DNA of 64,000 nt from a virus, in the IMG/VR virus record IMGVR_UViG_3300042935_001018, positions 1 through 64,000 of that record; one strand, given 5' to 3'. This document shows positions 20,228 through 44,035 of the stretch, in pieces. Both the position numbers and the translations under genes were made by a program. Each line of letters opens with the position of its first letter. The first letter of the stretch is position 1. The notes under the pieces are model-generated. The model saw nothing but the letters and a program-made list of their open reading frames with translations, was not told the DNA's origin and did no database searches.

Positions 20228-20229
20228 GT

Positions 20230-21228: not shown

Positions 21229-21653
21229 TTTTCAGCTATGCGTTTAAATATTTTATCGATATTGTTTTTGTTGGCTGCTCTACCTTCGTTAGCTTTGCGA
21301 AGCCTTTTTTCGTTAACAACCATTCTTTCAAGATTAGGTTTGCTTTTTTTAGTCTCTTCTAATCTAGCTCGATCGGCTTCTCCTATGTTGATATCGTTTC
21401 GGATAAGCTCCTCTAGCTGTTCAACAATAGAATTTTCGTCAAAGGTACGATGCTCTTCTAAATAAATATAAGACCTATTTTCTAGAGAGTCAACTAGTAG
21501 TTCGGTTATTTTTCCTTTTACTTCTTTAATTAAAAGCTTCTGGTGGCTAGCTTTTTCATCTAGGTTATCTTTCTCAAAGAAGTATAGCTTAATATTTTCA
21601 GTGATCAACCTATCCAAGTACGCACTCAGCGTATCTATATTAGTTATTCTCAT
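21225..21653 (-). CDS. Helical hypothetical protein (142 aa)
   Basis: Begins MRITNIDTLSAYLDRLITEN and is helical throughout, with a Lys/Arg-rich C-terminus (KANEGRAANKNNIDKIFKR). Overlaps neighbours on both sides by 4-14 bp. The position among glycosyltransferases suggests a helper role; no function can be read. Confidence 0.5.
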   Translation of the reverse strand: MRITNIDTLSAYLDRLITENIKLYFFEKDNLDEKASHQKLLIKEVKGKITELLVDSLENRSYIYLEEHRTFDENSIVEQLEELIRNDINIGEADRARLEETKKSKPNLERMVVNEKRLRKANEGRAANKNNIDKIFKRIAEK

Positions 21654-22665
21654 ACCCTATCCCCTCTACTGTTGATAACTGTTTGTAAAAATATTCTACT
21701 AAGCTCTGATTAGAGTACTGAGTAGTGTAAGCTCTTCGCATATTCTCTACTAAGTAGGGTTGAAGTTCTTTATAGTTCCTGAAGATGTGTTCGATCTTTT
21801 CTTCTACATCCGACCAATCGTACTTACAGGCAATATAGGTTTCATTATCCTGGTAGATAAACGGATAAGAATCTAGATGAGACATATCAGGTTTAAGAAG
21901 AATACTTCCAAAGCTTGCTGCTTCAATATCCCGTACTGCCATCTCTCCATATCCGATAGGAGCTGTTACAATCTTAGAGTTGTACATATTCTGGTAGAAT
22001 TGCTCTTGAGGAATTTTTACTCCTTTTTCTCTCCTTGCAACCTTATAAGAAGTACCTTCTAACTTCTCTAGTAACTCTTTGCGGTGGGTGTCGTAGTAAG
22101 GAGAAGTTAAATTTGTATACTCATAATTTAAATTATCCCCCCAGCTAAACATACACGACACATCGTAAGGCTTGTCTGAAGAGTAATTATACCAGGTTGG
22201 GGTGATTGTAGAGAGCCAGTTTGTACCGCTTAGCTTAATCCTGTCCTTAACTTGATTAATAAAAGGTACTTTGTAATCTCCAGCACCCCAGTATGTTCTT
22301 CCATTAACCCAGCCCTGTTCGTATAGCGAGAGATCTTTGAGTAAAGTATTCTTAAATAAAACTTTTACCTCGGTTGCTTGGAGTACTTCAACTGTTCCTA
22401 TTAGGGAATGTGAATCTTGTCCATCAAGCAGTAGAACATCCTTACCAAACTTTGATACAAACTCAATACCTTTCTCAACCGATTCGGCTAAGCTTGCTTG
22501 CTTATCTATGAAGCTTGCTTGAGCAATAAAAGCAAAATCGTATGAACTATCCTCGGTTGTAAACTCTATACCTACCTCTTTGAATAAGTCTTTAGCTCTC
22601 CAATATGGACGGAAAGCAATCTCATTGCGGTGTAGGTCAGGTTGTACTAACCGAATCTTTATCAT
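21640..22665 (-). CDS. GT-B-like glycosyltransferase (341 aa)
   Basis: The C-terminal part has IVTAPIGYGEMAVRDIEAAS and GSILLKPDMSHLDSYPF, which fit the EA(A/S)-containing donor site of glycan GT1/GT4-like proteins. YACKYDW-like and EHIFRNYKEL helices follow. The N-terminal domain is Rossmann-like (FGKDVLLLDGQDSHS). Confidence 0.6.
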   Translation of the reverse strand: MIKIRLVQPDLHRNEIAFRPYWRAKDLFKEVGIEFTTEDSSYDFAFIAQASFIDKQASLAESVEKGIEFVSKFGKDVLLLDGQDSHSLIGTVEVLQATEVKVLFKNTLLKDLSLYEQGWVNGRTYWGAGDYKVPFINQVKDRIKLSGTNWLSTITPTWYNYSSDKPYDVSCMFSWGDNLNYEYTNLTSPYYDTHRKELLEKLEGTSYKVARREKGVKIPQEQFYQNMYNSKIVTAPIGYGEMAVRDIEAASFGSILLKPDMSHLDSYPFIYQDNETYIACKYDWSDVEEKIEHIFRNYKELQPYLVENMRRAYTTQYSNQSLVEYFYKQLSTVEGIGYENN

Positions 22666-23288
22666 AAAGTATCGTAGTAAGCGTTTTGTTTTTCTTGACG
22701 CTGGATTGTTTTAGGATGGAACAAGCACCATTCTTCCTGAGGGGGAAGCGGGGAAGCGGTTTTAAATCCTTCTAGGTATTCATGTACCTTGCTTACCCAT
22801 TTAATATCTGAAGATCTTTTATAGATCCTCCATTGATAGTCTGGAAAGTTTACCCAGTCTTTTTCGTTAATAGCCCAGTTCCACTTCTGTACATGCTCTA
22901 GGGTTAGTCCTTCTACTGTGTTGATTCGAGGTACTAGTATAACATCTACCTGATTCATTTCAAGTAGAGCAGGGAGATGCTGCATTAGAAAACTGCTAGG
23001 CATCTCATCAGCATCAATCTGAAAGATATAATCTCCCAAGCAAGCTTCAGTCAAAGCATTCTTCATGTTAGCAAAGTGCCCGTCGAAGTGGTAACTAATG
23101 TACCGAAATGGAGCAAATGTATTCGTAGATAGACTTCTTAGATACTCATCTACTGCCTTAGTTCCATTATTGGAATCGTAAAAGATAATGATCTCATCCT
23201 CCTGCCTCTTGTTCTGAATTAGGAAAGGAAGCAGTCGTTGTATCTCTACAAGCTCATTACAAACCGTTACTGCGTAACTAATTTTCAT
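22662..23288 (-). CDS. Glycosyltransferase family 2 protein (208 aa)
   Basis: SYAVTVCNELVEIQRLLPFL, EIIIFYDSNNGTK, and YIFQIDADEMPSSFLMQHL with a clear DxD. The C-terminal VHEYLEGF is typical of WaaE/KdtX-like GT2. Overlaps by 4 bp upstream and by 1 bp downstream. Confidence 0.8.
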   Translation of the reverse strand: MKISYAVTVCNELVEIQRLLPFLIQNKRQEDEIIIFYDSNNGTKAVDEYLRSLSTNTFAPFRYISYHFDGHFANMKNALTEACLGDYIFQIDADEMPSSFLMQHLPALLEMNQVDVILVPRINTVEGLTLEHVQKWNWAINEKDWVNFPDYQWRIYKRSSDIKWVSKVHEYLEGFKTASPLPPQEEWCLFHPKTIQRQEKQNAYYDTL

Positions 23289-23725
23289 TACATTTCGTAA
23301 AAGCCAATTACTTGTAATGCGTCCATAAAGTCTCTCTGTTCGAAGTTTTGAGCTCCTTTCATATCCATTTTATGAGTCTGCCCTTCAGGGTACTTGTGCT
23401 GTTCTTCTTTAAGAATCTCAACAGCTTTAACGGCTGCCCATCTCCAATTCTCTTTAGTACTGCCGTCGATAAACACCATTCCTTTACCAGGCAGTGTTAC
23501 CGTAGCAGGCATCCATATATGATCGTCTTGATCTTTATGAAGAAGGTCTTTGTAGAGTTCTGGAGAGGATTCTAAGGCTTGAGTGACTGGCTGGCTTCCT
23601 TCTGTCATAACAGTAGAGGTTGTAAAGCCACATCCCATACATAACCAGGTTGTTAGCTGTTCGTTGATGTGCTGTTCGTAGCAGGCATTAGAGCCGCATC
23701 TTTTACAATCGGTTAACTTATCCAT
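23288..23725 (-). CDS. Zinc-ribbon hypothetical protein (145 aa)
   Basis: CKRCGSNACYEQ, then LCMGCGFTTST, gives a two-pair zinc ribbon in the first 40 residues. The middle carries MPATVTLPGKGMVFIDGST. I recall similar proteins in large marine phages, but no function is known to me. Placed inside the glycosyltransferase string with small overlaps. Confidence 0.6.
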   Translation of the reverse strand: MDKLTDCKRCGSNACYEQHINEQLTTWLCMGCGFTTSTVMTEGSQPVTQALESSPELYKDLLHKDQDDHIWMPATVTLPGKGMVFIDGSTKENWRWAAVKAVEILKEEQHKYPEGQTHKMDMKGAQNFEQRDFMDALQVIGFYEM

Positions 23726-24989
23726 TTATTTTCTGTAGTTTAGGTAGCTGTAATGTTGGTAGTTTAAGTTCAACTTGCTTAGGGAACTCAGGAAGATTAC
23801 TTGAGAGAATTTGATCTAATTGCTCTGCCATCTTCTCCCAGCTAAAGTTTGTACGAGACTTATATCCCTGTCTCTTAGCTAGCTCTGCATACTTCTTATA
23901 GTTGTCAAATACCATACGCAAAGCAGTTCCTGTCTGTGCATCGTCTGGTGTAAACCATTGAGCTTCTTTTAATAGCATTTTATCTATTGCAGCACTCTTA
24001 TGTACGTTAGTCAGAGTACCGGCAACAAGGTAAGTAAATTCCTTATCTAAGAAGTCGATATGCCCTGACCATCCTGAAGCTATGATAGGTTTATTCACAG
24101 CTGAGAATTCTAGAAGAGGTCTGCCAAATCCTTCTCCTTTAGTAAAGCTAACCATTGCTTTGACTTTAGGATGATTGTATAACATATTAACTTCTTCATC
24201 AGACATCTCTCCGTGAAGTAGGTAGATGTTAGGTAAAGTACCTTTAATACTCTTTCTAATATCGTCAATCTTTTTTAGTACTTGGTTTCTATCCAAGATA
24301 GAAGCGTTAGCAGATTGAGTCTTTAAGATTAAAGCAGGAGCGTCTTTCTTATTCTTAAAACTTTCTAAGAAAGCTTTTACAAGGTATCCTACATTTTTTC
24401 TATCCTGTCCAAAGTCTCCTTGCAGCCAATGTCCTACAAAGAGGTAAGCAAAAGATTCTTCTACTGCAGAGAGGTTAAAAGTACTACTAGTAACAGGTTT
24501 ATATTTTTCAATATCCAATCCTTCAAATAATACTTCAATAGGCTTCTGCAGTTCAATTGTACCTGTAGTCTTACCCTTATCTTGCACTTCAAACTTACTT
24601 CTCTCAAAAGTTTCTTTAGCATGCTGAGAGGATACTAGTGTGAGGTTCATTCTATTACAGCCTTCAATCCAACTTGGATCACAGATTGTAGTTTCGATAC
24701 CGGCTGTAACTCCTATGTTATACTTTCCAATAGGTTGGAACTCATTAGGTACTGTAATTTGAATCCAGATATCAGGTTGACCTGTAACGTTTGGTACAAT
24801 CTTTGAAGCTAGATCATGCTCTGAATGGTCTTTTAGATATCCAAACCGAGTATTCCCCCAGCGTTGAGATAGAATATAGACATTATATTTACCTGTACTA
24901 ATTAAGGCTTTAACAAAATCTCTAGAACGGCCTCCGTATCCAGAGTACGTATCAATTGGACAACTAACTAAAACTGTTGGCTTACTCAT
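23718..24989 (-). CDS. GT4-type glycosyltransferase (423 aa)
   Basis: SCPIDTYSGYGGRSRDFVKAL at the start. The C-terminal half has FVGHWLQGDFGQDRKNVGYL, TKGEGFGRPLLEFSAVNKPI and SGWSGHIDFLD, the standard GT4 donor-binding ExxGxP-like element. Possibly works with the next 482-aa GT4. Confidence 0.8.
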   Translation of the reverse strand: MSKPTVLVSCPIDTYSGYGGRSRDFVKALISTGKYNVYILSQRWGNTRFGYLKDHSEHDLASKIVPNVTGQPDIWIQITVPNEFQPIGKYNIGVTAGIETTICDPSWIEGCNRMNLTLVSSQHAKETFERSKFEVQDKGKTTGTIELQKPIEVLFEGLDIEKYKPVTSSTFNLSAVEESFAYLFVGHWLQGDFGQDRKNVGYLVKAFLESFKNKKDAPALILKTQSANASILDRNQVLKKIDDIRKSIKGTLPNIYLLHGEMSDEEVNMLYNHPKVKAMVSFTKGEGFGRPLLEFSAVNKPIIASGWSGHIDFLDKEFTYLVAGTLTNVHKSAAIDKMLLKEAQWFTPDDAQTGTALRMVFDNYKKYAELAKRQGYKSRTNFSWEKMAEQLDQILSSNLPEFPKQVELKLPTLQLPKLQKING

Positions 24990-26430
24990 ATACCATTGGG
25001 TGTTTTACATATTTAGTAGGAAGATCTTCAACCTTAATCACATCGTATCGGCTACGAGGTGTAAAGTTTTCAAATGTTTGATCGATAGATAGAATCACAT
25101 TCTTGGACATATTCTTAGCAGACATCATTGCTTCGTCTGATGTTACCCATTCACGTCCGGCAAGTCCTTTCTGCTTTCTTTCTTCGGGAGACAATATGTA
25201 GATTCTTTCAAGGACATCAGCTACATCTCTGAAGTCGCATCTGTCATCGTGGATGTACGGAGTAGGTACCGAACCTACTAGTGAGATGTTGGAAGGGTAG
25301 ACAGGCATAGCCCACTCTCCATGCTCTAGATAAGTACCCATGTGGTTGGAAGGTATTTCAAGCGAAGGAGTATACCACTGACCTTTATCATCTACAAATC
25401 TCATCTGGTCTTGCATACCACCGGTAACGTTACCAATGATCATAGTACCTGCCATCATAGATTCAGTCAAGCTTAAGCCCCATCCTTCATTAGAAGAGAT
25501 GAGCATAGTAACATCTGCGAGGTTGTACAGCCAGTTCATCTGCTCGTGACCTAATCTGTCCTGAGAGAAGAATACATTAACGTAGCTCGGATCGCAAATA
25601 GCTTCTCTAACTGCGTAAAGATCTGTTCCGTTTTCATCTACAGGCTGGGTGTGCATAATTAGAGCACATTTCTTTGCTTTCTCTGGACCTACTTGATCAC
25701 AGAACTGTCTATAGGCTAGAATAACATCACCCGGTGATTTACGTCGGATGTTTCTAGAGTTCCAGAACGCTACAAACTCAATATCTTTTCCTTCAAAGAT
25801 GCTCTTTTTGAACTCCTGGTACTTGTCGTAATTCTTAGACTCAGGTGTAATAGGGAAGAAGTGCTCTTCGTTAATACCGTGAGGTACATAAGTAAGTACC
25901 TTACCTTTAGCAGCATCTTCTAGCACAAGCTCGTTAATATTCTTAGTCTGTTTTGAAATAGACATAAGAAGATCACAGCACTCGTAATAAGCTTTATTGT
26001 AAAGAGGGGTAGGGTAATCGTCCCAAATGTTTAAGTACAGGAGAGGCATTGTTGTTCTAAGCTCTCTTTCGATATCAAACAACCAAGCCCAGTATCTAGG
26101 ATCGGTAAAGAGCATGATAGCGTCAGGCTTTTCAACTCTTAGAAGCTCTCTTATAACCTCAATAGTGCCGTAGCCTGATGTTGCATATAGCTTCACTGAA
26201 GCATCTGTTATACCGGTCTGCTTGTTAACATCTTCTGAGAGATCAAAGGCTTTCTTTTCATCGGGATGCTTCATAGCACCTCCTAAGTTTACCCAATTGA
26301 AGTGATGTGATGTGCCTACTACAATCTCTCTTGCCATAGTAGCGACTCCGGAATGGAGTCTTATATCATCACACAGCAGAAGAATCTTTTTTCGATCTTT
26401 CTGCTCAACATAACGAAATTTGTCTTGCAT
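24982..26430 (-). CDS. GT4-type glycosyltransferase (482 aa)
   Basis: LLLCDDIRLHSGVATMAREI, then FVAFWNSRNIRRKSPGDVI, ISSNEGWGLSLTESMMAGT and GNVTGGMQDQMRF are GT4 features (the EGWGLSLxE loop). Long for the family because of a C-terminal extension with a disordered look. First sugar-block gene after the RHH regulator, overlapping it by 1 bp. Confidence 0.8.
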   Translation of the reverse strand: MQDKFRYVEQKDRKKILLLCDDIRLHSGVATMAREIVVGTSHHFNWVNLGGAMKHPDEKKAFDLSEDVNKQTGITDASVKLYATSGYGTIEVIRELLRVEKPDAIMLFTDPRYWAWLFDIERELRTTMPLLYLNIWDDYPTPLYNKAYYECCDLLMSISKQTKNINELVLEDAAKGKVLTYVPHGINEEHFFPITPESKNYDKYQEFKKSIFEGKDIEFVAFWNSRNIRRKSPGDVILAYRQFCDQVGPEKAKKCALIMHTQPVDENGTDLYAVREAICDPSYVNVFFSQDRLGHEQMNWLYNLADVTMLISSNEGWGLSLTESMMAGTMIIGNVTGGMQDQMRFVDDKGQWYTPSLEIPSNHMGTYLEHGEWAMPVYPSNISLVGSVPTPYIHDDRCDFRDVADVLERIYILSPEERKQKGLAGREWVTSDEAMMSAKNMSKNVILSIDQTFENFTPRSRYDVIKVEDLPTKYVKHPMVYE

Positions 26431-28003: not shown

Positions 28004-28420
28004 TTATTCTTTTCTTTCTCCTTTGTGAGGATCTATTCGATCTAAGATCTTATTTAAGTCCCCTATATGGATAAAGCCAGACATCGAAGCGTTCTTAAGA
28101 GCACTTATAAGCTGAAGTAGAATGAAAGGTACGATAATGGTTTCAGATAACCAACTAGTTCCTGCAAAGCCTCTTTCGACCATCAGGATAACAGTTAGGA
28201 ACATTACCCATACTATTGTTCTTTGTAGTACTCTAACAGCTTTAAAGGTCTTAAAACCTTCTCTCTTGATTCCAGCAATGATGCCAAAAAATCCATCTAC
28301 AAACACCACAGCAATTAGAGCAAGGTACTGCTCAAAGTTACCCATTGTCAGCTCTAGAAAATAAGAGCATCCGAATGAAAGTGTGGTGGCGATAGACAAA
28401 AATATGGCTGTTGGTTTCAT
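28004..28420 (-). CDS. Phage holin (138 aa)
   Basis: Three predicted membrane segments (AIFLSIATTLSFGCSYFLEL, LALIAVVFVDGFFGIIAGI and VWVMFLTVILMVERG) with VDGFFGIIAG, as in the holin_4_1 family. Charged C-terminus (DRIDPHKGERKE). Directly downstream of the endolysin gene with a 1-bp overlap, forming a lysis cassette. Confidence 0.85.
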   Translation of the reverse strand: MKPTAIFLSIATTLSFGCSYFLELTMGNFEQYLALIAVVFVDGFFGIIAGIKREGFKTFKAVRVLQRTIVWVMFLTVILMVERGFAGTSWLSETIIVPFILLQLISALKNASMSGFIHIGDLNKILDRIDPHKGERKE

Positions 28421-29031
28421 TACTTCACGTATTCGTAGTACTTCTTAGTCTTGGCATTTCTGTCTTCAAGTCCGTGAGTACCGCCGTTGATGCGCTTGGT
28501 CAGTTCCAGGATAGCTGCATCGTTGATGCCCTTATCACAGATAGTCCATAGCTTATTTCTTTCAAAGAAAAACATAGCTGATTCAAAAGCGTATTTAGTA
28601 GCAACCGTATCAGGGTTAGTCAAGACCTCGTCATTGCCTAAGTACTTTGCAAATGCTTCGTAGTTGGCTTTACCAGTCAACTGAAGAGCTCCTCTGCCTC
28701 TGAACTTGTATCCATCCCCTGATGCTTCGGCTCCGTTGCCCATCCTGTCGGCGTAGACTCGGTTTGCAATCTTTTCAGGCTGGCGGGCGTAAGACTCTTC
28801 GAGGTTACCGGGGAAGTACTTGCCGAAGATACCTTGCAGGCCTTGGGCGGAGTAGTTTAGGTTCTCTGAAAATGCTTTAAAGCCTCCTGTTTCGTGGGCT
28901 GTTTGAGCGAAGAAGTGTGCAGCTCTAACTGGAGTCAACTTATAAAACTCCATTGCCTTCTTCATTGTTCCGGGACCAAAAGCGCCATCAGCGGCTATGC
29001 CCATCTTCTCTTGTAAACTTTTTAAGCTCAT
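28420..29031 (-). CDS. GH19 chitinase-like endolysin (203 aa)
   Basis: The catalytic region AAHFFAQTAHETGGF, with Glu, is followed by SENLNYSAQGLQGIFGKYF and YKFRGRGALQLTGKANYE, the standard phage GH19 lysozyme core. The first 25 residues (LQEKMGIAADGAFGPGTMKK) look like a short peptidoglycan-binding repeat. No signal peptide, so release should depend on the holin. Confidence 0.9.
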   Translation of the reverse strand: MSLKSLQEKMGIAADGAFGPGTMKKAMEFYKLTPVRAAHFFAQTAHETGGFKAFSENLNYSAQGLQGIFGKYFPGNLEESYARQPEKIANRVYADRMGNGAEASGDGYKFRGRGALQLTGKANYEAFAKYLGNDEVLTNPDTVATKYAFESAMFFFERNKLWTICDKGINDAAILELTKRINGGTHGLEDRNAKTKKYYEYVK

Positions 29032-29361: not shown

Positions 29362-29784
29362 CTAGTCTAGGGCATCCACAATAGCTTTTTTAACAGCTAC
29401 TGAAAATTCTGTTCTTTCGAAAGGAAGATTTTCATCTTGCAGCTGCATTAATGTAGCAGCAACGTTTGTATTAGCTTTTCCTACTCCGTGATAGACTGAT
29501 GAACCGATTGCAATATCTACCTCAACGATTGTTTTCTTTTGTTTGAATTCAAAAGGTCCGATTCTAATTCCTTGAGTAGGAGCTTTAATTTCAGTTACTG
29601 TAACGTAGATCGGACTTGCATTAAGATCGCTTTCCGGGCATAAAGGATTTCCTCTTTCATTGAGAACGTCCTCGGTGATTTGTCTTAGTCCGAAAGTAAA
29701 TTTTTGATTGTCGATACCGGCAAGGTTGGCATTTGAAGTCACCGTAGCGACGTAAAAGCACATAGTAAGGATTGGATTGATCAT
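29362..29784 (-). CDS. Hypothetical envelope-cassette protein (140 aa)
   Basis: Hydrophobic N-terminal stretch (PILTMCFYVATVTSNA) then beta-rich domain: SPIYVTVTEIKAPTQGIRIG, TIVEVDIAIGSSVYHGVGK, and a C-terminal helix FSVAVKKAIVDAL. This recalls YajG/CsgG-like lipoprotein domains, but that is only a resemblance. Ten bases after the C-type lectin gene. Likely periplasmic. Confidence 0.45.
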   Translation of the reverse strand: MINPILTMCFYVATVTSNANLAGIDNQKFTFGLRQITEDVLNERGNPLCPESDLNASPIYVTVTEIKAPTQGIRIGPFEFKQKKTIVEVDIAIGSSVYHGVGKANTNVAATLMQLQDENLPFERTEFSVAVKKAIVDALD

Positions 29785-29793
29785 GATATTGAC

Positions 29794-30789
29794 TTAGTAT
29801 TGTAACGTGGCTTGGTTAGAGTATCCAGGCGATAATAAATAGAAGTTGCTTATACCTCCTGAAGTAGGAGTAAAGGTAAAGTTAGATTGCAAGCCAGGTA
29901 TTGAACCCATTAGGTTTGAAGAACCGCTATTAAGGCTAGTCCATTGAGCATTTGTAAAAAGCAATGTGCTTTTAGTAAAAGGTGCTCCGTTAATTCTATC
30001 AGCTATAATGCAAATATCGGCAGTAGTAATCTTTCCTTCAAGGTTTAAATCGTACTTGTGATAGTGGAAGGGTCTTAAGGTAACTTTCTGAGTTACAACA
30101 TCACCCACTCCTTCAAAATCTGCAGAAGTAAGATTAGAAGTTACAGTAGGAACTACTACTTCGATATACCACTCAACGGAAGGATTGGTGGGTTGGGAGA
30201 AAGAATACTGCCCATTTAAATTAGTGACTGATGTGGCTTGAATAGTCCAGGCAGTAGTAGTAACTATGTATTCAAACTCTAAAACATAGGGCAAGTTTAC
30301 ATTGTTAGGTAGGTCATTCCATTTTCCATTACCGACAAACTGAACGTAGTCTTCATTACCTGCGTTGTTTGGCTCTCCAGGGTTCCAAGAAGTGTAAGAG
30401 TAAGCTTCACCGGTAACCCATCTCCATACTCCTTCATTTACTTCATCGGTTAATCCTATCCAACCCGATGGCCATAACCCAAATATAAAGTTATTTTCAG
30501 CCTGCGTGGTGACTGTTACTAGATGTCCACCCATGTTGTCACAGGCAGCTTTGGCTGCTGACCAAAATGCTGAACCTGTTGACCTGTAGTAGGAATGACC
30601 GTTGTAGTTCTGCTGATTTGTAAAACCTGTAATGACTGGGGTGACTCTTTTATAAAGGTTGACTGTTACTCCTGGAACTCCTATATTGCCTTCGGTCCTT
30701 ATAGCACCCGAGTGAGTAAAGGTCTGAGAGAGACCTAGTAACTGTACCAGGAATACAAAAGCTGAAGTGATAAGAACCTTAGAAGTCAT
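29794..30789 (-). CDS. Secreted C-type lectin domain protein (331 aa)
   Basis: Signal peptide (ITSAFVFLVQLLGLSQT), a short beta domain (GVPGVTVNLYKR), then a C-type lectin fold at residues about 60-185: WSAAKAACDNMGGHLVTV, WIGLTDEVNEGVWRWVTG, WNPGEPNNAGNEDYVQF, KWNDLPNN. The EPN triplet is the mannose-type sugar signature. A dockerin-like stretch (YDLNLEGKITTADICIIADR) follows. It may bind sugars on host or phage surfaces. Confidence 0.8.
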   Translation of the reverse strand: MTSKVLITSAFVFLVQLLGLSQTFTHSGAIRTEGNIGVPGVTVNLYKRVTPVITGFTNQQNYNGHSYYRSTGSAFWSAAKAACDNMGGHLVTVTTQAENNFIFGLWPSGWIGLTDEVNEGVWRWVTGEAYSYTSWNPGEPNNAGNEDYVQFVGNGKWNDLPNNVNLPYVLEFEYIVTTTAWTIQATSVTNLNGQYSFSQPTNPSVEWYIEVVVPTVTSNLTSADFEGVGDVVTQKVTLRPFHYHKYDLNLEGKITTADICIIADRINGAPFTKSTLLFTNAQWTSLNSGSSNLMGSIPGLQSNFTFTPTSGGISNFYLLSPGYSNQATLQY

Positions 30790-31597
30790 AATTAGCGCCT
30801 ATTGAAACGATATAAGGCGTGGTTTTGCTGTATCCATTCTCTATATCAGATATATCATAAGTATAACTAGTTCTAAACTTCGTAGCAAATGCAAATACAT
30901 CAGTAACATTGTATTGAATAGTAGTACCGAAGTAAGTAGTCAAGTTAGTTCTATTCCAAAACCAGATATCTAAATAATCTTCCGAGTCCTCTAAATGTTT
31001 AAAGTGGGTTCTAAGAGATGACAACATAAAGATCTCAGGTCTTGCCACCCATCTTCCTGCTTGAAACTCTTTCATTCCTAAGAGCATGACACTGAACTTA
31101 GTCTGGAAGCCTGCCGGGATGTAAGTATCAAGGAATTGAAACCCGTCCCAGCTATTATCCTTCACAAACAAAGTGTACCCTAGCTTGTAGCTACTCTTCT
31201 GGTAAGTCTGATTAAGGAAAGGAGTAACTGAAATTGTATTCACTCCTACATCACTCCCTCCTATCGTGAGGCTGTATGTGTTGGTTCTAAGCAGGCCGTT
31301 AGGGAATTCTTTCTCTCTGATGTAGTTGTAGCCGAACTTAGTAAAATTAAATGAAGGAGTCCTTGAAAGGAAGAACCCGTTGGTGTGATTCTTATTCTTA
31401 AGCTGGTAGGCGAGATTATAGCTGAAGATACTAAACTGACCTAGGAACCCGAAGGATAGGCTTGAACTACTAATGATGTCGTTATCAAGATCAACGTACT
31501 GAATTGAAGTCCACTCCGAGACTGATTCAGAGCCCTCTTGGGTAGTCTGGGCAAAGACATTGAAAGGTATTAAGATGAGTAGTAAAAATTTTTTCAT
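30779..31597 (-). CDS. Outer-membrane beta-barrel protein (272 aa)
   Basis: Signal peptide (FLLLILIPFNVFAQ), then repeated amphipathic strands with Tyr/Phe, ending VSIGANYDF with C-terminal Phe, the beta-barrel assembly signal. Overlaps neighbours by 4-11 bp. Not a known phage family to me. Probably inserted in the host outer membrane. Confidence 0.7.
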   Translation of the reverse strand: MKKFLLLILIPFNVFAQTTQEGSESVSEWTSIQYVDLDNDIISSSSLSFGFLGQFSIFSYNLAYQLKNKNHTNGFFLSRTPSFNFTKFGYNYIREKEFPNGLLRTNTYSLTIGGSDVGVNTISVTPFLNQTYQKSSYKLGYTLFVKDNSWDGFQFLDTYIPAGFQTKFSVMLLGMKEFQAGRWVARPEIFMLSSLRTHFKHLEDSEDYLDIWFWNRTNLTTYFGTTIQYNVTDVFAFATKFRTSYTYDISDIENGYSKTTPYIVSIGANYDF

Positions 31598-33141
31598 AAC
31601 AGTATTTTTGTTCCTGTTGATATCTGGTAATTAAGTATTTCTGCATTCCATTGATAAGCTCCTGAGAATGAAATACTCCATTTGAACTTATCAGTTAATT
31701 TAAAATCTATGTTAGCTAGAGGTACTAGTAGCATTCCTGAACTGTACCACTGACCTTGGTAGTAGAAGATATAAGGTGAATATACGCCCAACAGCATTAC
31801 GTTTCCACCTATTGATTTTCCTCCTTTAAAGTTTGTAAATCCTCCTCCGACTATGGACCAGTTCCGGAACCAGCTCTTCCCCAGCTGCCCGGCAGTAAAA
31901 TTAGTACCCAACATCATTGTAGCAGGTCCTGCTTTTTGAGCTGCTAGAGCTGTGGTTGTATTAAACCAATCGGTCTTAAAGTTAGTCATCACCGAATTGG
32001 AGAATACCCCCATAAACCCTTTAGCTTTATAAGAACCATATAGAGTAGTATTCAGAACATTCTCACCGGTAGTGTAATTCAGATTAACTCCTTTGATAAA
32101 GTTTTGCTTGGTATTGACATGGGTGATGGAGGAGTTGAACCTAAAATTATCCTGACCCGTGTCCCTGATGTTGCCGGAGTTTCTGATGGCGACAAAGTCA
32201 CCGGAGCCTATGAGAGCTCCTCTACCTACTTTCTCTTGCCTGCTTTTTTGCTTTTGACCTCCGCCGCCGCTTTTACCACCACCATTGCCATTTGACGAGC
32301 TTTCAGACTCCCCACCTGATGCTGAGGTTGTGTTTTCTTGCCCACCGACTGCTCCTGATTCCGTACCACCGCCCTCAGTCGAGCCTCCTCCTCCTGAAGA
32401 TGGAATAGATCCTCCTCCGCCTTCACCCTGACCGGAGGAAGGTTGACCTGATCCCGAACCACCCGATCCCGAACCGCCTGAGCCTGAGCCGCCTGAAGAA
32501 CCAGAGCCTCCAGTTCCTGAACCTCCTCCGGAACCTCCGCCAGAACCCGAGCCAGAGCCACCGCCACCAGTACTACCGCTACCGCCACTCCCACCAGTGC
32601 TCCCTCCACTGCCTGTAGAGCCTGTTCCGGAGCTACCGGAGCTAGACCCAGAACTACTACCGCCATTCCCAGAACTACTAGAGCTGCTACCAGAAGAATT
32701 CGAACCATTGTCATTATTATTTGTATTTGAAGTTCCACCACCTGCTACACCTCCGCCCGGAATAGCGGATGATCCTATGTTCCCGCCTAGACTGGCGGCG
32801 ATACTAACTATGCCTGATACGTTATTGACCGTATTAGTGCCAATAGCTGCATTTGATCCTGTTGTGATAGTACCCCCGCCTCCAGCGCAGGGGTTACTTC
32901 CTGCAGGCACACTTGCATTAACACTTTGTACCCAAAGCTCGAAGGCTCCGGCCTGTAGCTGGGCTGCTGTAAAAGTATTGTATTGTCCGGCATAAAAGAG
33001 CGTTACAGAGCCTGATGGCTGGGTAATGGTAACAGAGTTAAGTATTCCTGTGCAAGGATCGGTGTAGGTATAGATATACTGACTATACCCTTTGAACCAT
33101 GCAATTAGAAATATTAACGCTATTTTCCATTTACCATCCAT
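31594..33141 (-). CDS. Gly/Ser-rich outer-membrane barrel protein (515 aa)
   Basis: Hydrophobic N-terminus (IALIFLIAWFKGYSQ, signal-like). Residues about 25-110 form a small beta domain, about 125-300 are extreme Gly/Ser low complexity, and about 310-515 look like beta strands ending YQISTGTKILL. A surface barrel with a long flexible linker is the simplest model. Low complexity opens other frames, which are not genes. Overlaps the CsgG-like gene by 11 bp. Confidence 0.6.
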   Translation of the reverse strand: MDGKWKIALIFLIAWFKGYSQYIYTYTDPCTGILNSVTITQPSGSVTLFYAGQYNTFTAAQLQAGAFELWVQSVNASVPAGSNPCAGGGGTITTGSNAAIGTNTVNNVSGIVSIAASLGGNIGSSAIPGGGVAGGGTSNTNNNDNGSNSSGSSSSSSGNGGSSSGSSSGSSGTGSTGSGGSTGGSGGSGSTGGGGSGSGSGGGSGGGSGTGGSGSSGGSGSGGSGSGGSGSGQPSSGQGEGGGGSIPSSGGGGSTEGGGTESGAVGGQENTTSASGGESESSSNGNGGGKSGGGGQKQKSRQEKVGRGALIGSGDFVAIRNSGNIRDTGQDNFRFNSSITHVNTKQNFIKGVNLNYTTGENVLNTTLYGSYKAKGFMGVFSNSVMTNFKTDWFNTTTALAAQKAGPATMMLGTNFTAGQLGKSWFRNWSIVGGGFTNFKGGKSIGGNVMLLGVYSPYIFYYQGQWYSSGMLLVPLANIDFKLTDKFKWSISFSGAYQWNAEILNYQISTGTKILL

Positions 33142-33871
33142 ACTGCTCCATGCGCTTGACGAGGTTTACAGTCGCAACCTCTAACGCACGTTGTGTAGCA
33201 ACGCCAACTGTTGAACCATCAAACCCCATCTGAGGATTCTTAAAGAAGCCCTCACCAACTTGGGTTGAAGTTCCTTGACCTGAAGCCACAATATACTGTC
33301 CGTTATCCACATTTACCATTCGGATCTGAATGCCGATGATAGTAGTATTGGTCTTATTTGTTTTACCTTTATCGTAAGTCTCAGCATATGATACAGAGAA
33401 GTCATAGATCTCAGCATACACAACATACTTAGGAACGGCAATGCCTTCCATTGTAAGTTGAGTCTTGCCATTTGAAAGTCCGTTTAGTTCAGTCTCCCAA
33501 GCATCAAGCATCTGATTCTGAATTGCTTCTTTCTCTTCAGCGTAAGTAAAGCGACCGGTCTGTTCGAAGTTCTCAATGATTCTATTCGATACACCCATAC
33601 CCACTCTCTTGTCTCTTAACTCAGGGAACATATCCCAAAGCTCTTTATTGACATTAAGCTTAGATAGCTGCACTACCTGCTTCTGACCGGTAAAGGCTGG
33701 AAGAGTATTTAGAGCTTCTGCTTTCTCAAACTCGGCTGTATACTGTTGTACACCTACAGAAGATTTACATGAGGTCGCTAACGTACCTACAACTAACATT
33801 CCACCTACAACCAGAAGTACCCCTATAGGAGCGAAAATCTTTTCCATAATCTCGTCTCTTCTAGTTCTCAT
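33131..33871 (-). CDS. CsgG-like outer-membrane lipoprotein (246 aa)
   Basis: Lipobox LATSC after a hydrophobic segment. Then GMGVSNRIIENFEQTGRF, a block of beta strands with YVVYAEIYDFSVSYAET, and GVATQRALEVATVNLVKRM, which match the CsgG curli secretion-channel fold. ATG at 33871 overlaps the upstream stop (TAATG); an ATG at 33847 gives a shorter signal. CsgG forms a nonameric outer-membrane pore in curli systems. Curli subunits (CsgA/B) are not seen here. Confidence 0.75.
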   Translation of the reverse strand: MRTRRDEIMEKIFAPIGVLLVVGGMLVVGTLATSCKSSVGVQQYTAEFEKAEALNTLPAFTGQKQVVQLSKLNVNKELWDMFPELRDKRVGMGVSNRIIENFEQTGRFTYAEEKEAIQNQMLDAWETELNGLSNGKTQLTMEGIAVPKYVVYAEIYDFSVSYAETYDKGKTNKTNTTIIGIQIRMVNVDNGQYIVASGQGTSTQVGEGFFKNPQMGFDGSTVGVATQRALEVATVNLVKRMEQYGW

Positions 33872-34251
33872 TACTTACCGGCGTTCTGGTCTTCTCTCTG
33901 CTTTTTAAGGCGAGCCATTCTTTCGGCTGGAGTTTCTTTCTTCTCTTCAGCTGGAGCTGCTGGAGCTGGTGCTGCTGCTTGAGCTGGTACTTCACGAACA
34001 GTCTCTTTGATGATAGTAGTACCACCACCGGAGTTGTTCTGCTGCTGGGTATTGTTGTTCTCAAGGTTAACGATAACTGGAGCCGGGGCAGGAGCTACCT
34101 GCTCAGTTTTAGTCTCCTCTTCATCCTCAATACCTAACAAGCTATTAATGTGAGTAGTAGCCCAGATACCAATACCTGTTACAGCTGTACCTAATACTCC
34201 TAGGACTGTCTTCTTTACGCTAGACATTCCGCCTTCTTGTTCTTCACTCAT
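33871..34251 (-). CDS. Single-span protein with Pro/Ala-rich stalk (126 aa)
   Basis: One membrane segment (KKTVLGVLGTAVTGIGIWATT) near the N-terminus, then an acidic stretch, an Asn/Gln/Gly linker and a Pro-Ala-rich tail (PAQAAAPAPAAPAEEKKE). No enzymatic domain. It overlaps the CsgG-like gene by 1 bp and may be an inner-membrane partner or spacer. Confidence 0.55.
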   Translation of the reverse strand: MSEEQEGGMSSVKKTVLGVLGTAVTGIGIWATTHINSLLGIEDEEETKTEQVAPAPAPVIVNLENNNTQQQNNSGGGTTIIKETVREVPAQAAAPAPAAPAEEKKETPAERMARLKKQREDQNAGK

Positions 34252-34256: not shown

Positions 34257-36191
34257 TTAGAATTTAATTAATTTGTAAACTTTATCTCTGTCGTTCATAA
34301 CCAGTCTTACGAAGTAAGTACCTTTTGGTAAATCACCCAGGTAGATTCCTTTGTATTGGAAGCCTAGATCTGTTTGATTAATTTTTTCAGCCTTTAGGAT
34401 TTGACCTTGCATGTTTGCAATCACCATAGTTAGAGGCTGCTTATCTTCTGTGTAGAATTCTGCTATAGCCCATCCACCGGTCATATCCGATACTGGGTTA
34501 GGGTATACGTGGAAGCCGTAGATCTTCTCCGTTGTAATAGGATCTAGAGTAGCTCTTCCGTTGATGATCGAACCATCGTTAAGAGAAGGCTTAACTGATA
34601 GGTCATCTGCTTTTTCGTTACCAGCTGCTTTGTCGAAGATTCTTAGAGGAGCTGAAGTCCATCCTAGGATTGATTTAACTCTAAAGCGGAATGTAAATGC
34701 ATTGCTCATTGCTTCTAGCACTGCAGGGTTCATCTTATCTTCGTGACCGGCCCAGAACACTCTGCCTTTCTCTACACTAATAAGACTGGTCCATTTAGCT
34801 GCTACTGGTCCTGCTTCGATTGAGATGAACTCAAAGATGTTGGTGTCGTATTCAAAGCCCATCTGAGCTGCTCCAATCTTGTTACCGAATGTGTACATAG
34901 TAACTGGAACGTCAACGAAGTTGTCTGCAGTAAGTACTAGCTTAGGGAATCTAAACTGAACTGTGTCAGGCTTGTTTGACATATAGACTGCTGGGTCTAG
35001 AACGTATTCTGTGATACCGCCTCCGGCTGGGTTGATCTTAGCAAGGATTGTTGCTGGATTGTTGTAGCCGGTTGTTGTAGCGTCACCAACTACGTAGATG
35101 TAAGGATTGATTGAGTCTAGACTATTAACAATAGTATCGATTGCGTATCTTCTAGGAGTAGTAGCCCAGTTAGGAGCTCCGGTAGCTAGAGTTGCAGGAT
35201 CGTACTCACCAGGCCATAATGTTGCAACGTTGTTTACTCCTGTAAATAATCCACTCCAGGTAGTTGACTGAAGAGCTAATCTATTGAATACGGCAAAGCC
35301 GTCAGAGATAGTTACTGTCTGTGATTGGTTGATATCACCTTCGTACCACTCTATACCTGCTAAAGTATCTTGGCCGGTAACGTGGTTGGCTAATTTATAG
35401 GCGTCTGTGATTGAGATTGCACCACCGTCAGACATTGAGTCAGTCTGAGCAGCGATCTTAAGATGCCAGTAGTTTGTATCAAGAGGGTGAGTAAACTCTA
35501 CTAGACCTGCTGCATTAGTTGAATCAGAAGAGATTGGCTGCCAAGTTGCAAGAGGAGTTGACTTGAGTCTCTTTGCAGCTGAGAACCAAACTCCTTGAGC
35601 TGGTGATCCGTCTGCGTTCTTAGCTCTGACTGGGAAAGTCATCGGAGTCATTTGGAATGCACCTCCGTAGTTGAATAAGGTTAGAGTAACGTCGGTACCG
35701 CTACCAACTGTTGCAAGGTTGGTGTAGGAGCTGGCTCCTGTGATGGCCATTGAGTTAGTAACTCCTTTGTAGTTAGATCCGTGATTAAGTCTTAACTTAA
35801 ACATCGCACCATCATTCCAGTCATAGGAAGTATTGGTACCGGTGTAAGTTGCTACAACGTTGATATACCCGCTAGCATTTACATCGAAGTAAGATCCGTA
35901 CTTATCTGATACCGACTGTGCTGTTGGACCCCAGAACATGGTAGCTCCAGAGAATTTAGTATTGTCGTAAAACAATCTAAACTGGACAGCTTTAACTGGT
36001 GTTGCAGTTGGGTTAGCAAAGTGTACGTAGATATCGGTGTAGGTGGCCGGGTGATTAGCCAGAGTAAACAAAGTATCTACTAGAATGTAAGGAGTAGATG
36101 AGTTAGGAGCTGGTAGGATCTCATTAGCACCATTCTGTGCTTGAGCTGTTAATCCTAAAATTGCAGCGAGTACTACAAAGATTTTTTTCAT
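34257..36191 (-). CDS. Secreted cohesin-like protein with T9SS type A sorting domain (644 aa)
   Basis: Start at 36191 (MKKIFVVLAAILGLTAQAQ is the signal peptide). Two cohesin-type beta domains (YILVDTLFTLANHPATYTD..., and VDVPVTMYTFGNKIGAAQM...) flank a dockerin-like part (GDINQSQTVTISDGFAVFN). The last 80 residues (GFHVYPNPVSDM..., LPKGTYFVRLVM, KVYKLIKF) are a classic T9SS type A C-terminal domain. It would be exported by Sec and then the host T9SS to the cell surface. Confidence 0.9.
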   Translation of the reverse strand: MKKIFVVLAAILGLTAQAQNGANEILPAPNSSTPYILVDTLFTLANHPATYTDIYVHFANPTATPVKAVQFRLFYDNTKFSGATMFWGPTAQSVSDKYGSYFDVNASGYINVVATYTGTNTSYDWNDGAMFKLRLNHGSNYKGVTNSMAITGASSYTNLATVGSGTDVTLTLFNYGGAFQMTPMTFPVRAKNADGSPAQGVWFSAAKRLKSTPLATWQPISSDSTNAAGLVEFTHPLDTNYWHLKIAAQTDSMSDGGAISITDAYKLANHVTGQDTLAGIEWYEGDINQSQTVTISDGFAVFNRLALQSTTWSGLFTGVNNVATLWPGEYDPATLATGAPNWATTPRRYAIDTIVNSLDSINPYIYVVGDATTTGYNNPATILAKINPAGGGITEYVLDPAVYMSNKPDTVQFRFPKLVLTADNFVDVPVTMYTFGNKIGAAQMGFEYDTNIFEFISIEAGPVAAKWTSLISVEKGRVFWAGHEDKMNPAVLEAMSNAFTFRFRVKSILGWTSAPLRIFDKAAGNEKADDLSVKPSLNDGSIINGRATLDPITTEKIYGFHVYPNPVSDMTGGWAIAEFYTEDKQPLTMVIANMQGQILKAEKINQTDLGFQYKGIYLGDLPKGTYFVRLVMNDRDKVYKLIKF

Positions 36192-36246
36192 AGAGGGTCG
36201 TAAGTTATGTTTAAATTCCAAAAACAATTACCTACAACAATTCCAT

Positions 36247-40391: not shown

Positions 40392-41957
40392 TTATCTTAG
40401 GACTGTAACTGTAAAGCTGTAAGACTGATCTGGGGTGTCTAATACTCCAAAATAAACTCCATCTGCTACATTTCCTCCATCCCAATCATTCTTATAATCT
40501 GGATTGGTGTAGACTATCTGCCCCCATCTATTCATAATACTTATACTGGCAGGACTGTGATTGCTTAGGTTCTTAATTACAAACAGATCGTTTTTGTTAT
40601 CTCCGTTCGGAGTTACTACGTTCGGGATAAGAATAGGTTGCGTAGGGATAACAATAGGTTCTTCTCCGTTCCTAATATCGTCAACTGGACCGATAGGGTC
40701 TGGAGGTGGTGGAGGTGGACAAGGTCCTACCTTGATTAGGATTGTATCAAACTCGTCCATCTCAATACCGCACTTATTCATTAAAGTATTTCCATCGTTT
40801 CCTTTCTTAGAGTAGAGGTAGTACTCTCCTGCGTAACTAAAGGGCATGAGCATTACAATACGTACTGAGTCGGTCTCGTAATTGACATCGACATTAGACC
40901 AGATTTTTTTGATTGCAACAGGTTGGCTGGTCTGTGTCCGGGTCATTCTAAAATCAACATCGTTAATTGAATACCCATCTAAGGCAATGTGAAACTTAAG
41001 TCCAAAGGCTGTATCCCCGCATGCTACTTCTTTATATTTTAGTCCTGTAATTGTATCAACCGGGTATTGAGTAGGGTCGTATTTTACGCCTTGCATCGCT
41101 ACTGCATTGCAATTATATGCAATTGATATCATCATATCTCTTGAGGCTGAACCTACCTTAGTCCATACTCCCCAAAGCGAATCATACCTGTATTCTTCAA
41201 TCAATACCGACAGTGCATCAACCTCCTGAGTTGTAGGATAGAAAGAGATCTGCCCGGTCTGAGGATTGATATTGAAGTAGGTTGAGGATACAGGTTGATT
41301 CTTATTGAATCCAAAGTCAAACGGAATGTTAGTCTGGTTTGGGTAAGCTCCTTCCCGGCAATTGATCAGAGAGTATGCCACCGAGTCTCCATCGTACTCG
41401 ACCGAGCTTTGCTTCCAGTTGAAAGGATTAGCTACACAGAATGCCCGAACAGGCTCCGATACAAAGATCGGAGATGAGTTCTGTCCATTAAGGTTATTGA
41501 GTAGAGCATCAAAGTAGAAGCCGTCGGTTCCAGTTCCATTTGAGTTTGAGATATTAGTTACTCCAGGAGGACGGCAGCAATTTGAATACCAGAATACAAA
41601 GTCACCGCAGTTGCCCGGCAGTACTACATACCCGGTGTACCGGTAAACTTCCAGAGTCTTCACACCAGGTCCCGGGTTTACGCAATCAAATAGGGTTGGG
41701 GATACAACCCCGCTTCCGGCTGTTAGGTTGACAGTAACGTTGGTGTTAGAATAACATCCTGAGGATATTGTTACTGTCTCAGTAGTGGGCATTGCTATAC
41801 CGGTAACATCTCTATAGACTCTCAGAATGATTTTATAATGACGGGCGATTCCGGTAGAATCTCCAATGTAGCGGTATTGTATATCACCACCCGCTAAGTG
41901 CGATGCTGTTGAGACAAAGCTCATCAACAACGCTAAAACAACGTACAACTTTTTCAT
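40392..41957 (-). CDS. Exported protein with gliding-type (T9SS type B) C-terminal domain (521 aa)
   Basis: Signal peptide (YVVLALLMSFVSTASH), then HLAGGDIQYRYIGDSTG. The C-terminus IPNVVTPNGDNKNDLFVI, SIMNRWGQIVY and DGVYFGVLDT matches the gliding-motility CHU_C domain used as a type B T9SS signal. Its N-terminal half, with FWYSNCCRPPG, is related to that of the protein at 58538-59446. Start at 41957; an upstream in-frame TTG is the promoter -33. Confidence 0.85.
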   Translation of the reverse strand: MKKLYVVLALLMSFVSTASHLAGGDIQYRYIGDSTGIARHYKIILRVYRDVTGIAMPTTETVTISSGCYSNTNVTVNLTAGSGVVSPTLFDCVNPGPGVKTLEVYRYTGYVVLPGNCGDFVFWYSNCCRPPGVTNISNSNGTGTDGFYFDALLNNLNGQNSSPIFVSEPVRAFCVANPFNWKQSSVEYDGDSVAYSLINCREGAYPNQTNIPFDFGFNKNQPVSSTYFNINPQTGQISFYPTTQEVDALSVLIEEYRYDSLWGVWTKVGSASRDMMISIAYNCNAVAMQGVKYDPTQYPVDTITGLKYKEVACGDTAFGLKFHIALDGYSINDVDFRMTRTQTSQPVAIKKIWSNVDVNYETDSVRIVMLMPFSYAGEYYLYSKKGNDGNTLMNKCGIEMDEFDTILIKVGPCPPPPPPDPIGPVDDIRNGEEPIVIPTQPILIPNVVTPNGDNKNDLFVIKNLSNHSPASISIMNRWGQIVYTNPDYKNDWDGGNVADGVYFGVLDTPDQSYSFTVTVLR

Positions 41958-41962
41958 AGTAA

Positions 41963-41993
41963 TAAATATAAGAAGCCCCTTTCGGGGCTCCAA
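41963..41993 (-). promoter_or_regulatory. Class I promoter with hairpin in spacer
   Basis: Minus strand TTG (41993-41991), 20 bp, TATATTTA (41970-41963). Spacer hairpin AGCCCC-GAAA-GGGGCT (41974-41989), followed by a T-rich stretch. Confidence 0.75.
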
Positions 41994-42013: not shown

Positions 42014-43564
42014 CTATTGTTTAATAACTCTTATATTTTTAACTGTATAAACTCCCTTAGGAAGGTATCCTAAATCGTTCCAGCCTTTTTCAAGCTTGCC
42101 AACTACTCTACCGGTGTTGTCAAAGATCAGAGCTTGCTCTTGAGAGTAGAGCTGATCAGCAACCGGGTTAGGGTATAGGCTGATTGGTGAGTTAAATTCT
42201 GCAACTGAGATAGTATTGCCGATTAGGTTTGTGTCGTTAAAGCTAGCTCCTGTGTCTAGTCCGCTAGTAGCTGATGGACGATAGTCAGGCTGTAGGTAGC
42301 TGTAAGGAGTGGTAAACAATCCAGTAGAAGCTGCTAGAGTATCATTGGAAGTAAAATACCAAGCACCGGCATTAAAAGAAGGATTAGTTCCTCTGAGGAT
42401 GAATTTGCCGCTGCAGCCAGCAATCAGATTATTTTGGAATACTAACCTATTCTGTAGTGCATTTGTTTCTGTAGAAGTTCCGTCAATATGAATACCGTCT
42501 TTAAAGTCTGTAAAGACTGAGTTGAAGATTTTCATTTCACTGTTCCGGCGAAGTCTCAAAGCTCTTCTAAACTTAGGATCGACTGTAGCCTGTAGGTTAC
42601 CTCTTAGTGGTCCGATAGCAGTTACGTTAGAGAATGTGGCAGCTGTCTTAGGTCCGTTGTTAGAACCGGCGCCGTCATTATCACATTCAAACCCTTCTGA
42701 GGTTGAGCCTGATGACTGGTCAGCAATAAAAGGATCTCTAACAATTAAAGCAAATTGAACTTTACCTCGGTATCCAAAATCGCAGTCCATGTCATCATCC
42801 AGGTTGCGGTACGATACCAAGTGCTTACAATTCACAGTACCACCAAACCATTCAAAAGCGTCATCATTAGTAAATGAAACTTGAACATAATCAACTACTG
42901 TCTTACTTCCTACTGAACCGAAAGTTAATCCATTAATCTCTTTGTCAGGCATGTAAGCATATCCGCCGAACTCGATTCTAACGTATTTTAAAACACCTGA
43001 GCTATCCTGGTCGTTATTACCTCCATACTCAGTATTAGCTGAAGTAGGTAAGCCTTCGATGTTACCGATGCCTGCATTAGATCCTGCTGCTGTGTTGGGT
43101 GGGATGTTATTAACAGCCTCTCCTAGAATAACAATTCCTCCCCAGTCACCGATTGTTCGTTGGCCAGGAACTGCACTAGAAGTAAATACGATTGGTTGAG
43201 TAGCTGTACCTTCAGCATATAATGTTCCCTGCTTAGTTACAATCAGAGCCGATCCTGCAGTGTTCTTATCAAAAAGAATTACTGTACCGGGTTGGATAGT
43301 AAGCGAGCTCTTCAAGTATACCGGACCTTGAACTAAGTAAACATTGCTGCTTGTCCAAGTTAGACTACTAAGTAGTTCTCCTGAAACTGTCTGGGTGTGG
43401 ATCGGGTAGACTGTGTTTTGAGCATCCCAGTTAGTCCATCCGTCAGTCCATTGGGTGGTAGGAGCTGGTGCAAAAGCACCTCTATAACTTGTTGGGGTCC
43501 AGAAAGAGGTCTGGCCGAATAACGTAACTGCCGAAAGAGCTACAAGGGTAAATAAGTGTTTCAT
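42014..43564 (-). CDS. Exported beta-helix protein with T9SS type A sorting domain (516 aa)
   Basis: Signal peptide (HLFTLVALSAVTLFGQ). Beta-helix-like repeats such as GTLYAEGTATQPIVFTSS and WGGIVILGEAVNNIPP are common in Bacteroidota surface proteins. The C-terminus SPISLYPNPVADQLYSQEQA plus LPKGVYTVKNIRVIKQ is a T9SS type A domain. Located next to the tail genes. Likely shown on the infected-cell surface or packaged with the virion. Confidence 0.85.
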   Translation of the reverse strand: MKHLFTLVALSAVTLFGQTSFWTPTSYRGAFAPAPTTQWTDGWTNWDAQNTVYPIHTQTVSGELLSSLTWTSSNVYLVQGPVYLKSSLTIQPGTVILFDKNTAGSALIVTKQGTLYAEGTATQPIVFTSSAVPGQRTIGDWGGIVILGEAVNNIPPNTAAGSNAGIGNIEGLPTSANTEYGGNNDQDSSGVLKYVRIEFGGYAYMPDKEINGLTFGSVGSKTVVDYVQVSFTNDDAFEWFGGTVNCKHLVSYRNLDDDMDCDFGYRGKVQFALIVRDPFIADQSSGSTSEGFECDNDGAGSNNGPKTAATFSNVTAIGPLRGNLQATVDPKFRRALRLRRNSEMKIFNSVFTDFKDGIHIDGTSTETNALQNRLVFQNNLIAGCSGKFILRGTNPSFNAGAWYFTSNDTLAASTGLFTTPYSYLQPDYRPSATSGLDTGASFNDTNLIGNTISVAEFNSPISLYPNPVADQLYSQEQALIFDNTGRVVGKLEKGWNDLGYLPKGVYTVKNIRVIKQ

Positions 43565-43653
43565 AAATGTAAACGTAATTGTTTATTAATAACTACGTTT
43601 AAGATAGGCTACCGAGTTTAGATCAGTATTAAGCCTTTATTAAGAAACCTAAG

Positions 43654-43727
43654 TGGGCCTGCCAGGGCTCGAACCTGGGACCTGGGGATTATGAGTCCCT
43701 CGCTCTAACCGACTGAGCTACAGGCCC
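43654..43727 (-). tRNA. tRNA-Met(CAT) or Ile2
   Basis: 74-nt cloverleaf: GGGCCTG acceptor, loop CTCATAA, T-loop GTTCGAGCC. Discriminator A, then CTT, so CCA is not encoded. CAT could also be lysidine-modified Ile2. Confidence 0.9.
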
Positions 43728-43732
43728 GATGG

Positions 43733-43817
43733 CGGAGGCTCAGGGATTCGAACCCCGGGACCTGTTACAGTCAATAGTTTTCAAGACTACCGCAATCGAC
43801 CACTCTGCCAAACCTCC
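43733..43817 (-). tRNA. tRNA-Ser(TGA)
   Basis: 85 nt with a long variable arm; anticodon TGA in loop CTTGAAA. 3' CCA is encoded (discriminator G, then CCA). Confidence 0.9.
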
Positions 43818-43826
43818 ATTGTAAAA

Positions 43827-43947: not shown

Positions 43948-43952
43948 TGTAG

Positions 43953-44035
43953 TTGGAAGGAACAGATTCGAACTGCTGTACCCGTAAGGGAGCAGATTTA
44001 CAGTCTGCCGGTTTTAACCACTCACCCACCTTCCA
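43953..44035 (-). tRNA. tRNA-Tyr(GTA)
   Basis: 83 nt, acceptor TGGAAGG/CCTTCCA, loop CTGTAAA, long variable arm. CCA not encoded. Confidence 0.9.

Follow-up and report, generated by a model that had tools for sequence, protein, structure and literature searches.

A phage gene cassette of CsgG-like, barrel, lectin and cohesin-scaffold proteins, a candidate surface-display module

CsgG has been reported in pelagimyophages (PMC7029224) and complete curli modules in pelagipodophages (PMC9599517), and the locus described here raises the question of why a phage carries CsgG-like genes without curli. The locus lies in the window, by which we mean the whole stretch of 64,000 nucleotides that was analysed (positions 1-64,000 of the virus record IMGVR_UViG_3300042935_001018, which has 111,527 bases in full). 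As far as sequence can tell, it has a core of five conserved genes and codes for exported proteins, among them a scaffold that combines cohesin domains with a T9SS tail and the proteins of a variable slot, which carry swappable heads. The cassette could well be a surface-display module that the infected cell makes before lysis and that displays lectins, a reading we hold to be evenly poised. Its anatomy is well supported, whereas the export route and the purpose are what we infer from it.

Gene order and conservation of the cassette

The cassette is a single run of minus-strand genes, in which neighbouring ends overlap or touch, transcribed in the order coh656, stk126, csg, gs515, bar272, lec and p140. 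A preliminary description of this DNA had counted five to six overlapping genes; all six open reading frames are found on the minus strand where it had placed them, and the overlap agrees with the coupling seen at four junctions (stk126/csg, csg/gs515, gs515/bar272 and bar272/lec), where the stop codon of one gene overlaps or almost reaches the start codon of the next. Its borders (29362-34251) need to be moved, as the operon starts one gene earlier with coh656 (34257..36227), the most informative member of the cassette, which lies just outside them. On the 3' side, the genes after p140 encode an 80-aa membrane protein, a GH19-type endolysin (28420-29031) and a holin (28004-28420), and these family matches bear out the lysis group that had been placed beside the cassette. 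A promoter scan found fewer sites than in shuffled sequence and was uninformative. Directly downstream of the lysis genes lies a cluster of glycosyltransferase and nucleotide-sugar epimerase genes (10740-26430, minus strand).

Two scans of viral contigs found csg relatives at 42 loci and p140 relatives at 80 or more, some contigs being present in both sets. Among the matches listed, the core coh656-stk126-csg-gs515-[slot]-p140 has the same order in 87 of the 87 loci that hold all five core genes, a count that includes the window and the cultured phage immuto and takes overlapping loci separately. These loci hold 39 distinct pairs of csg and p140 proteins, with csg identity down to ~31%. The dN/dS ratio is ~0.02-0.14 for csg, gs515, coh656 and p140 (seven pairs), and the core genes are under strong purifying selection. 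With viral homologues, a fixed order and low dN/dS, the reading frames of the cassette are real genes. Between the window and a related locus (L061), synonymous divergence is 0.17 for the endolysin next door, as against 1.7 for csg and 1.4 for lec, a contrast that suggests recombination of the cassette apart from the genes around it.

In an annotated phage collection, the core occurs only in isolates of Flavobacterium phage immuto (vB_FspM_immuto, Immutovirus), as gp013-gp019, most of which are annotated as 'hypothetical proteins'. A search of phage genomes for the gene order, which had been proposed as a check, thus leads to a cultured phage with the same core order. Immuto shares the core genes and their order with the window, lectin included, and differs in having its scaffold in two genes, its lectin upstream of the scaffold, no lysis genes adjacent and a piecemeal annotation. 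Its cassette sits among replication genes, ~6 kb from the endolysin; the neighbourhood of lysis genes is therefore common but not needed. The T9SS tails described below, together with the Flavobacterium host of immuto, suggest that the host of the window phage belongs to the Bacteroidota and has a T9SS of its own.

CsgG-like proteins, the predicted barrel and their cellular relatives

The product of csg (33131..33871, minus strand) is CsgG/PelC-like and, in the clade of the window, a probable lipoprotein (ATSC35|KSS). Its AlphaFold2 model is of moderate confidence (pLDDT 66.6, pTM 0.56), and the 23 best Foldseek matches to this model in the PDB are all E. coli CsgG (best E 1.3e-8, TM ~0.5), with PelC next. 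No match of csg itself to the Pfam CsgG family (PF03783) was obtained, nor any match in a sequence-profile search of PDB chains; its nearest cellular homologues (KSB1, Ignavibacteriales MAG; 36-41% identity) pass the PF03783 cut-off, and the alignment of csg with the curli CsgG profile is collinear and weak (E 3e-4). Taken together, the Foldseek matches, the family membership of the cellular homologues and the collinear profile match support a CsgG fold, and the fold first proposed for this gene stands up to structure prediction, in a moderate model.

The segments of csg aligned to the membrane hairpins of CsgG, with the hairpin borders of the CsgG structure, measure 15-16 and 16-18 aa, compared with 21 and 20-25 aa in curli CsgG, and the first of them is highly charged (~5 charges in 15 residues). 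Because these segments are short and polar, a CsgG channel is doubtful; of the 'CsgG-like channel' of the preliminary description, the fold is retained and the channel is in question. With both segments short and the first one charged, a pore and a PelC-like ring that does not span the membrane are equally likely. PelC is a lipoprotein ring beneath a barrel.

The cassette holds a second, short CsgG-related protein, encoded by p140 (29362..29784, minus strand) and overlooked as such in the original gene set, with two cysteines (C9 and C49) that are invariant in an alignment of 30. Cellular operons contain a second CsgG-like protein that the p140 HMM recognises (E 2e-9 and 4e-8). Since the csg model recognises these second CsgG-like proteins too, p140 is best taken for a short relative of theirs. 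A profile search of the PDB with p140 gave chance-level matches only. No signal peptide is visible in the clade of the window, where a stop codon just upstream of p140 rules out a longer start, and one is present in other clades, the immuto-like clades included.

The protein encoded by gs515 (31594..33141, minus strand) consists of a signal peptide, a two-cysteine beta domain (residues ~22-85), a disordered Gly/Ser-rich linker (~100-306) and a predicted 12-strand outer-membrane barrel (309-513). In the AlphaFold2 model, 12 antiparallel strands close into a barrel over residues 309-513 (block pLDDT mostly 63-84), confidence being low except in the barrel and the N-terminal domain, and the Foldseek matches are the barrels of KdgM, NanC, intimin, FapF and EspP (E 1e-4 to 1e-3). 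What had been read as a Gly/Ser-rich barrel protein is accordingly a protein with a predicted C-terminal barrel, whose Gly/Ser part is a disordered linker and not the barrel; in a 31-sequence alignment, the length of this linker varies strongly, and it nearly vanishes in some clades. The other of the two barrels claimed at first, bar272 (30779..31597, minus strand), is a 272-aa protein of the variable slot with a signal peptide, present in some relatives only, and is a probable outer-membrane barrel by the look of its sequence, which ends in ...YDF. The two proteins are unrelated at the profile level.

In joining a CsgG/PelC-type fold to an adjacent outer-membrane barrel, the cassette resembles the PelB/PelC, FapF and CsgG exporters, although a sequence relation to PelB and FapF is not established and the likeness is one of fold. 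With the type VIII secretion (curli) modules of pelagiphages and the methylophage Melnitz, it shares a phage-encoded CsgG-fold protein whose operon also encodes exported proteins. Unlike them, it has a T9SS scaffold and swappable lectins, its 12-strand barrel is a separate protein, a second CsgG-like protein is present, and the host phylum is a different one. Family searches of the cassette proteins found neither CsgA/B repeats nor the partners CsgE and CsgF, in agreement with the earlier remark that no curli subunit is visible, and a plain curli reading is rejected for want of curli partners.

Cellular relatives of this unit exist as operons in KSB1 and Bacteroidota MAGs (L125, 787-3591; L127, ~9000-11000) that combine a CsgG-like lipoprotein with an outer-membrane barrel and another CsgG-like protein. 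On the KSB1 contig, the order is csg, a 414-aa protein in which an N-terminal domain and a linker precede a barrel-like end, and the second CsgG-like protein; in a Bacteroidota MAG, it is barrel, csg and second CsgG-like protein. The profile match between the cellular barrels and gs515 is not significant, so the link between them rests on gene position and layout. An intact host locus free of phage genes, which had been named as an outcome that would count against a phage system, is thus found in part, as a three-gene version that lacks the scaffold and the lectins. The cassette as a host locus is rejected, a strong csg match being found in 1 of 395 Bacteroidota genomes, namely the centre genome itself. 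Curli-type CsgG is above the family cut-off in 23 of 61 sampled Bacteroidota genomes (~10 strong full-length matches), and csg is, in sequence terms, a separate and rare group apart from it. Two GTDB contigs (L128 and L129) that carry much of the core are phage-like by their neighbouring genes.

The scaffold and the variable lectin slot

The 656-aa product of coh656 is a predicted secreted scaffold with a signal peptide, cohesin domain(s), a CnaB-like and dockerin-like centre and a T9SS type A C-terminal sorting domain. Starting at an internal Met, it opens with a signal peptide that was read by eye (MKKIFVVL...AQ); Pfam Cohesin is matched in two stretches (1.3e-9), and the tail matches Pfam Por_Secre_tail (1.6e-6) and TIGR04183 (2.4e-8; 33.8 bits against a cut-off of 23). 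The signal peptide and the TIGR04183 match together are the features expected of T9SS type A cargo, to which coh656 would belong, and the tail is present in 26 of 26 scaffold representatives. The dockerin match (E 0.053) is below the Pfam cut-off. Next to the scaffold, stk126 (33871..34251, minus strand) encodes an N-terminal membrane segment, a Pro/Ala-rich stalk and a charged C-terminal end, as read from its sequence and an alignment of 27 relatives; family searches with it gave no match.

Immuto divides the scaffold between gp014 and gp015, each with a signal peptide of its own (L124, NC_055915.1, 11598-13422). The gp015 protein consists of a cohesin (5.9e-9) and a T9SS tail (9.3e-12) alone, both above cut-off, whereas gp014 has a dockerin-like rear half and no tail, which is the layout of a slot protein. 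As gp015 represents a minimal anchor, non-covalent docking of the remaining parts is plausible. Such a split is what one expects of a T9SS-anchored cohesin that holds dockerin-like partners, and is not proof of binding.

The slot between gs515 and p140 varies: it may contain bar272, lec, both of them, or other secreted proteins of 365-598 aa. The lectin of immuto and of a few relatives is encoded outside it. The heads of the slot proteins match C-type lectin, Laminin_G_3 or PA14, which are glycan-binding families, and their rear halves are constant, lack a T9SS tail and are homologous to the centre of coh656 (hhalign probability 97.8, E 9e-13). In the window, lec (29794..30789, minus strand) encodes a signal peptide, a C-type lectin head, a CnaB-like region with a single dockerin-like loop (DLNLEGKITTAD) and a constant C-terminus. 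Its head matches Pfam Lectin_C (PF00059; 2.1e-16) and contains the EPN and WND motifs, which settles in its favour the initial assignment as a C-type lectin. EPN together with WND is the mannose-type signature of C-type lectins. The dockerin-like region, homologous to that of coh656, has by eye one loop, whereas true dockerins have two.

Heads are exchanged between phages that have identical CsgG-like proteins. In one pair of loci (L121 and L123), csg and p140 are identical and the lectins share 37 of their first 40 and 116 of their last 118 residues, while the middles are unrelated; in another (L053 and L061), csg, gs515, p140 and the scaffold are 95-99% identical and the slot gene differs. 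A diversity-generating retroelement behind the lectin variation was rejected, no reverse transcriptase being found in the 111.5-kb record. In one relative (L032, 11868-12797), a TnpB-like open reading frame, of the IS200/IS605 type by the appearance of its sequence, lies within the variable slot, between two slot proteins.

Two further genes outside the core may encode T9SS clients. A second T9SS-tailed secreted protein (40392..41993, minus strand) has a type B signal (Pfam CHU_C 8.1e-19; TIGR04131 2.8e-10, above cut-off) and is a possible partner of the cassette, and a third exported protein (42014..43564, minus strand) has a probable type A tail (SLYPNPV...LPKGVYTV; Por_Secre_tail 0.0032, below cut-off), so that this one phage possibly has three T9SS clients, coh656 included. 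Phage-encoded T9SS cargo has been described for Cryophage, where it is highly variable and in one case has a PA14 domain (PMC7468147), and T9SS sorting domains for crAss-like cluster 2 phages (PMC6949934). The cassette is like both in encoding phage proteins with T9SS tails, but its variable glycan-binding proteins are tail-less, the tail being on the conserved cohesin scaffold, and a CsgG-like and barrel core is not reported there. It also recalls the cellulosome, in pairing cohesin domains of a scaffold with dockerin-like modules of its possible partners, and departs from it in that the binding heads are not enzymes, the dockerin modules are degenerate and the anchor is a T9SS tail. The parts thus have precedents. 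For the combination, no description was found in the open-access literature, which leaves the earlier remark that no described phage system with this set was known standing for the system and not for the gene order, which immuto has.

A possible mechanism of display and its alternatives

In the display reading, the host Sec pathway would export the cassette proteins, and the host T9SS, to which the tail of coh656 points, would carry the scaffold to the outer surface and anchor it there. The csg protein would assemble into a ring of lipoproteins at the periplasmic face of the outer membrane, with p140 as a second subunit or plug, gs515 as the barrel above the ring, its Gly/Ser linker acting as a gate or tether, and stk126 reaching up from the inner membrane. 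Fold, neighbourhood and conservation suggest that these four proteins may serve as a portal for the tail-less slot proteins, the route of the lectins being a guess; the partnership is supported by the cellular operons, in which csg and a barrel gene are also neighbours. The slot proteins would dock on the scaffold via their dockerin-like modules and its cohesins, and the displayed heads, whose families are recognised, would bind glycans on the surface of the host strain. The lectin, the Gly/Ser-rich protein and the stalk protein, offered in the preliminary description as cargo or partners, are likely to be such. A more ambitious version, in which a virus-encoded lectin coat self-assembles as a surface organelle, with the T9SS used for the cohesin anchor, the CsgG/PelC-like ring and 12-strand barrel for the lectins, and heads exchanged like receptor-binding proteins, is put forward tentatively, as conceivable rather than probable.

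The benefit would most likely be receptor masking against further phages, the main alternative being that cells are held together. Aggregation of this kind ('sibling capture'), with the lectins or the Gly/Ser segment of gs515 gluing infected cells to their neighbours, has been suggested for phage curli modules (PMC7029224, PMC9599517), and surface lectin heads on a scaffold would serve it equally well. However, family searches found curlin repeats in none of the cassette proteins, and the Gly/Ser segment, which varies strongly in length and is nearly gone in some clades, is for that reason unlikely to be a fibre; we consider aggregation unlikely. We think it improbable that the cassette is an aid to lysis, in which the CsgG-like protein and the barrel(s) would perforate or depolarise the envelope, as hypothesised for the CsgGF pore of the methylophage Melnitz (PMC9004378). 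Endolysin and holin do adjoin the cassette here and in many relatives, yet in immuto it sits among replication genes, csg seems to lack the membrane hairpins of CsgG, and a lysis model leaves the lectins, cohesins and T9SS tails unaccounted for.

The scaffold and lectins might instead be virion parts, fibres or capsid decorations that recognise hosts, given that head swapping recalls receptor-binding proteins and that virions are known to contain C-type lectin and Ig-like folds. Virions assemble in the cytoplasm, however, and the signal peptides of the lectin, scaffold, gs515 and bar272, like the T9SS tails, point out of it, which makes this account no better than the one from lysis. Surface glycan-binding proteins and barrels also recall the uptake systems of Bacteroidota, and PelC/CsgG-like rings can sit beneath barrels, but a phage-made system importing nutrients or glycans is very improbable, family searches having found no TonB-dependent transporter, SusD or enzyme domain in the cassette.

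If the cassette is a display module, large phages of aquatic Bacteroidota would seem to remodel the outside of the cells they infect, using a conserved chassis with interchangeable sugar-binding heads. The glycosyltransferase and epimerase cluster, along with at least one further T9SS-tailed protein in the same phage, fits such a surface-rebuilding programme. Display would bear on how phages compete for a host, through exclusion by glycan masking, on the presence of CsgG-like genes in phages without curli, and on the ways in which phages exploit the T9SS; the cultured phage immuto makes the idea directly testable. The csg-gs515-p140 unit, for its part, draws attention to a cellular operon of CsgG-like and barrel genes that awaits study. 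Elsewhere in the window, the phage encodes a GroEL (48264-49898, minus strand; PHROG 5725, E 3e-169) and a run of eight tRNA genes (43653-45385, minus strand).
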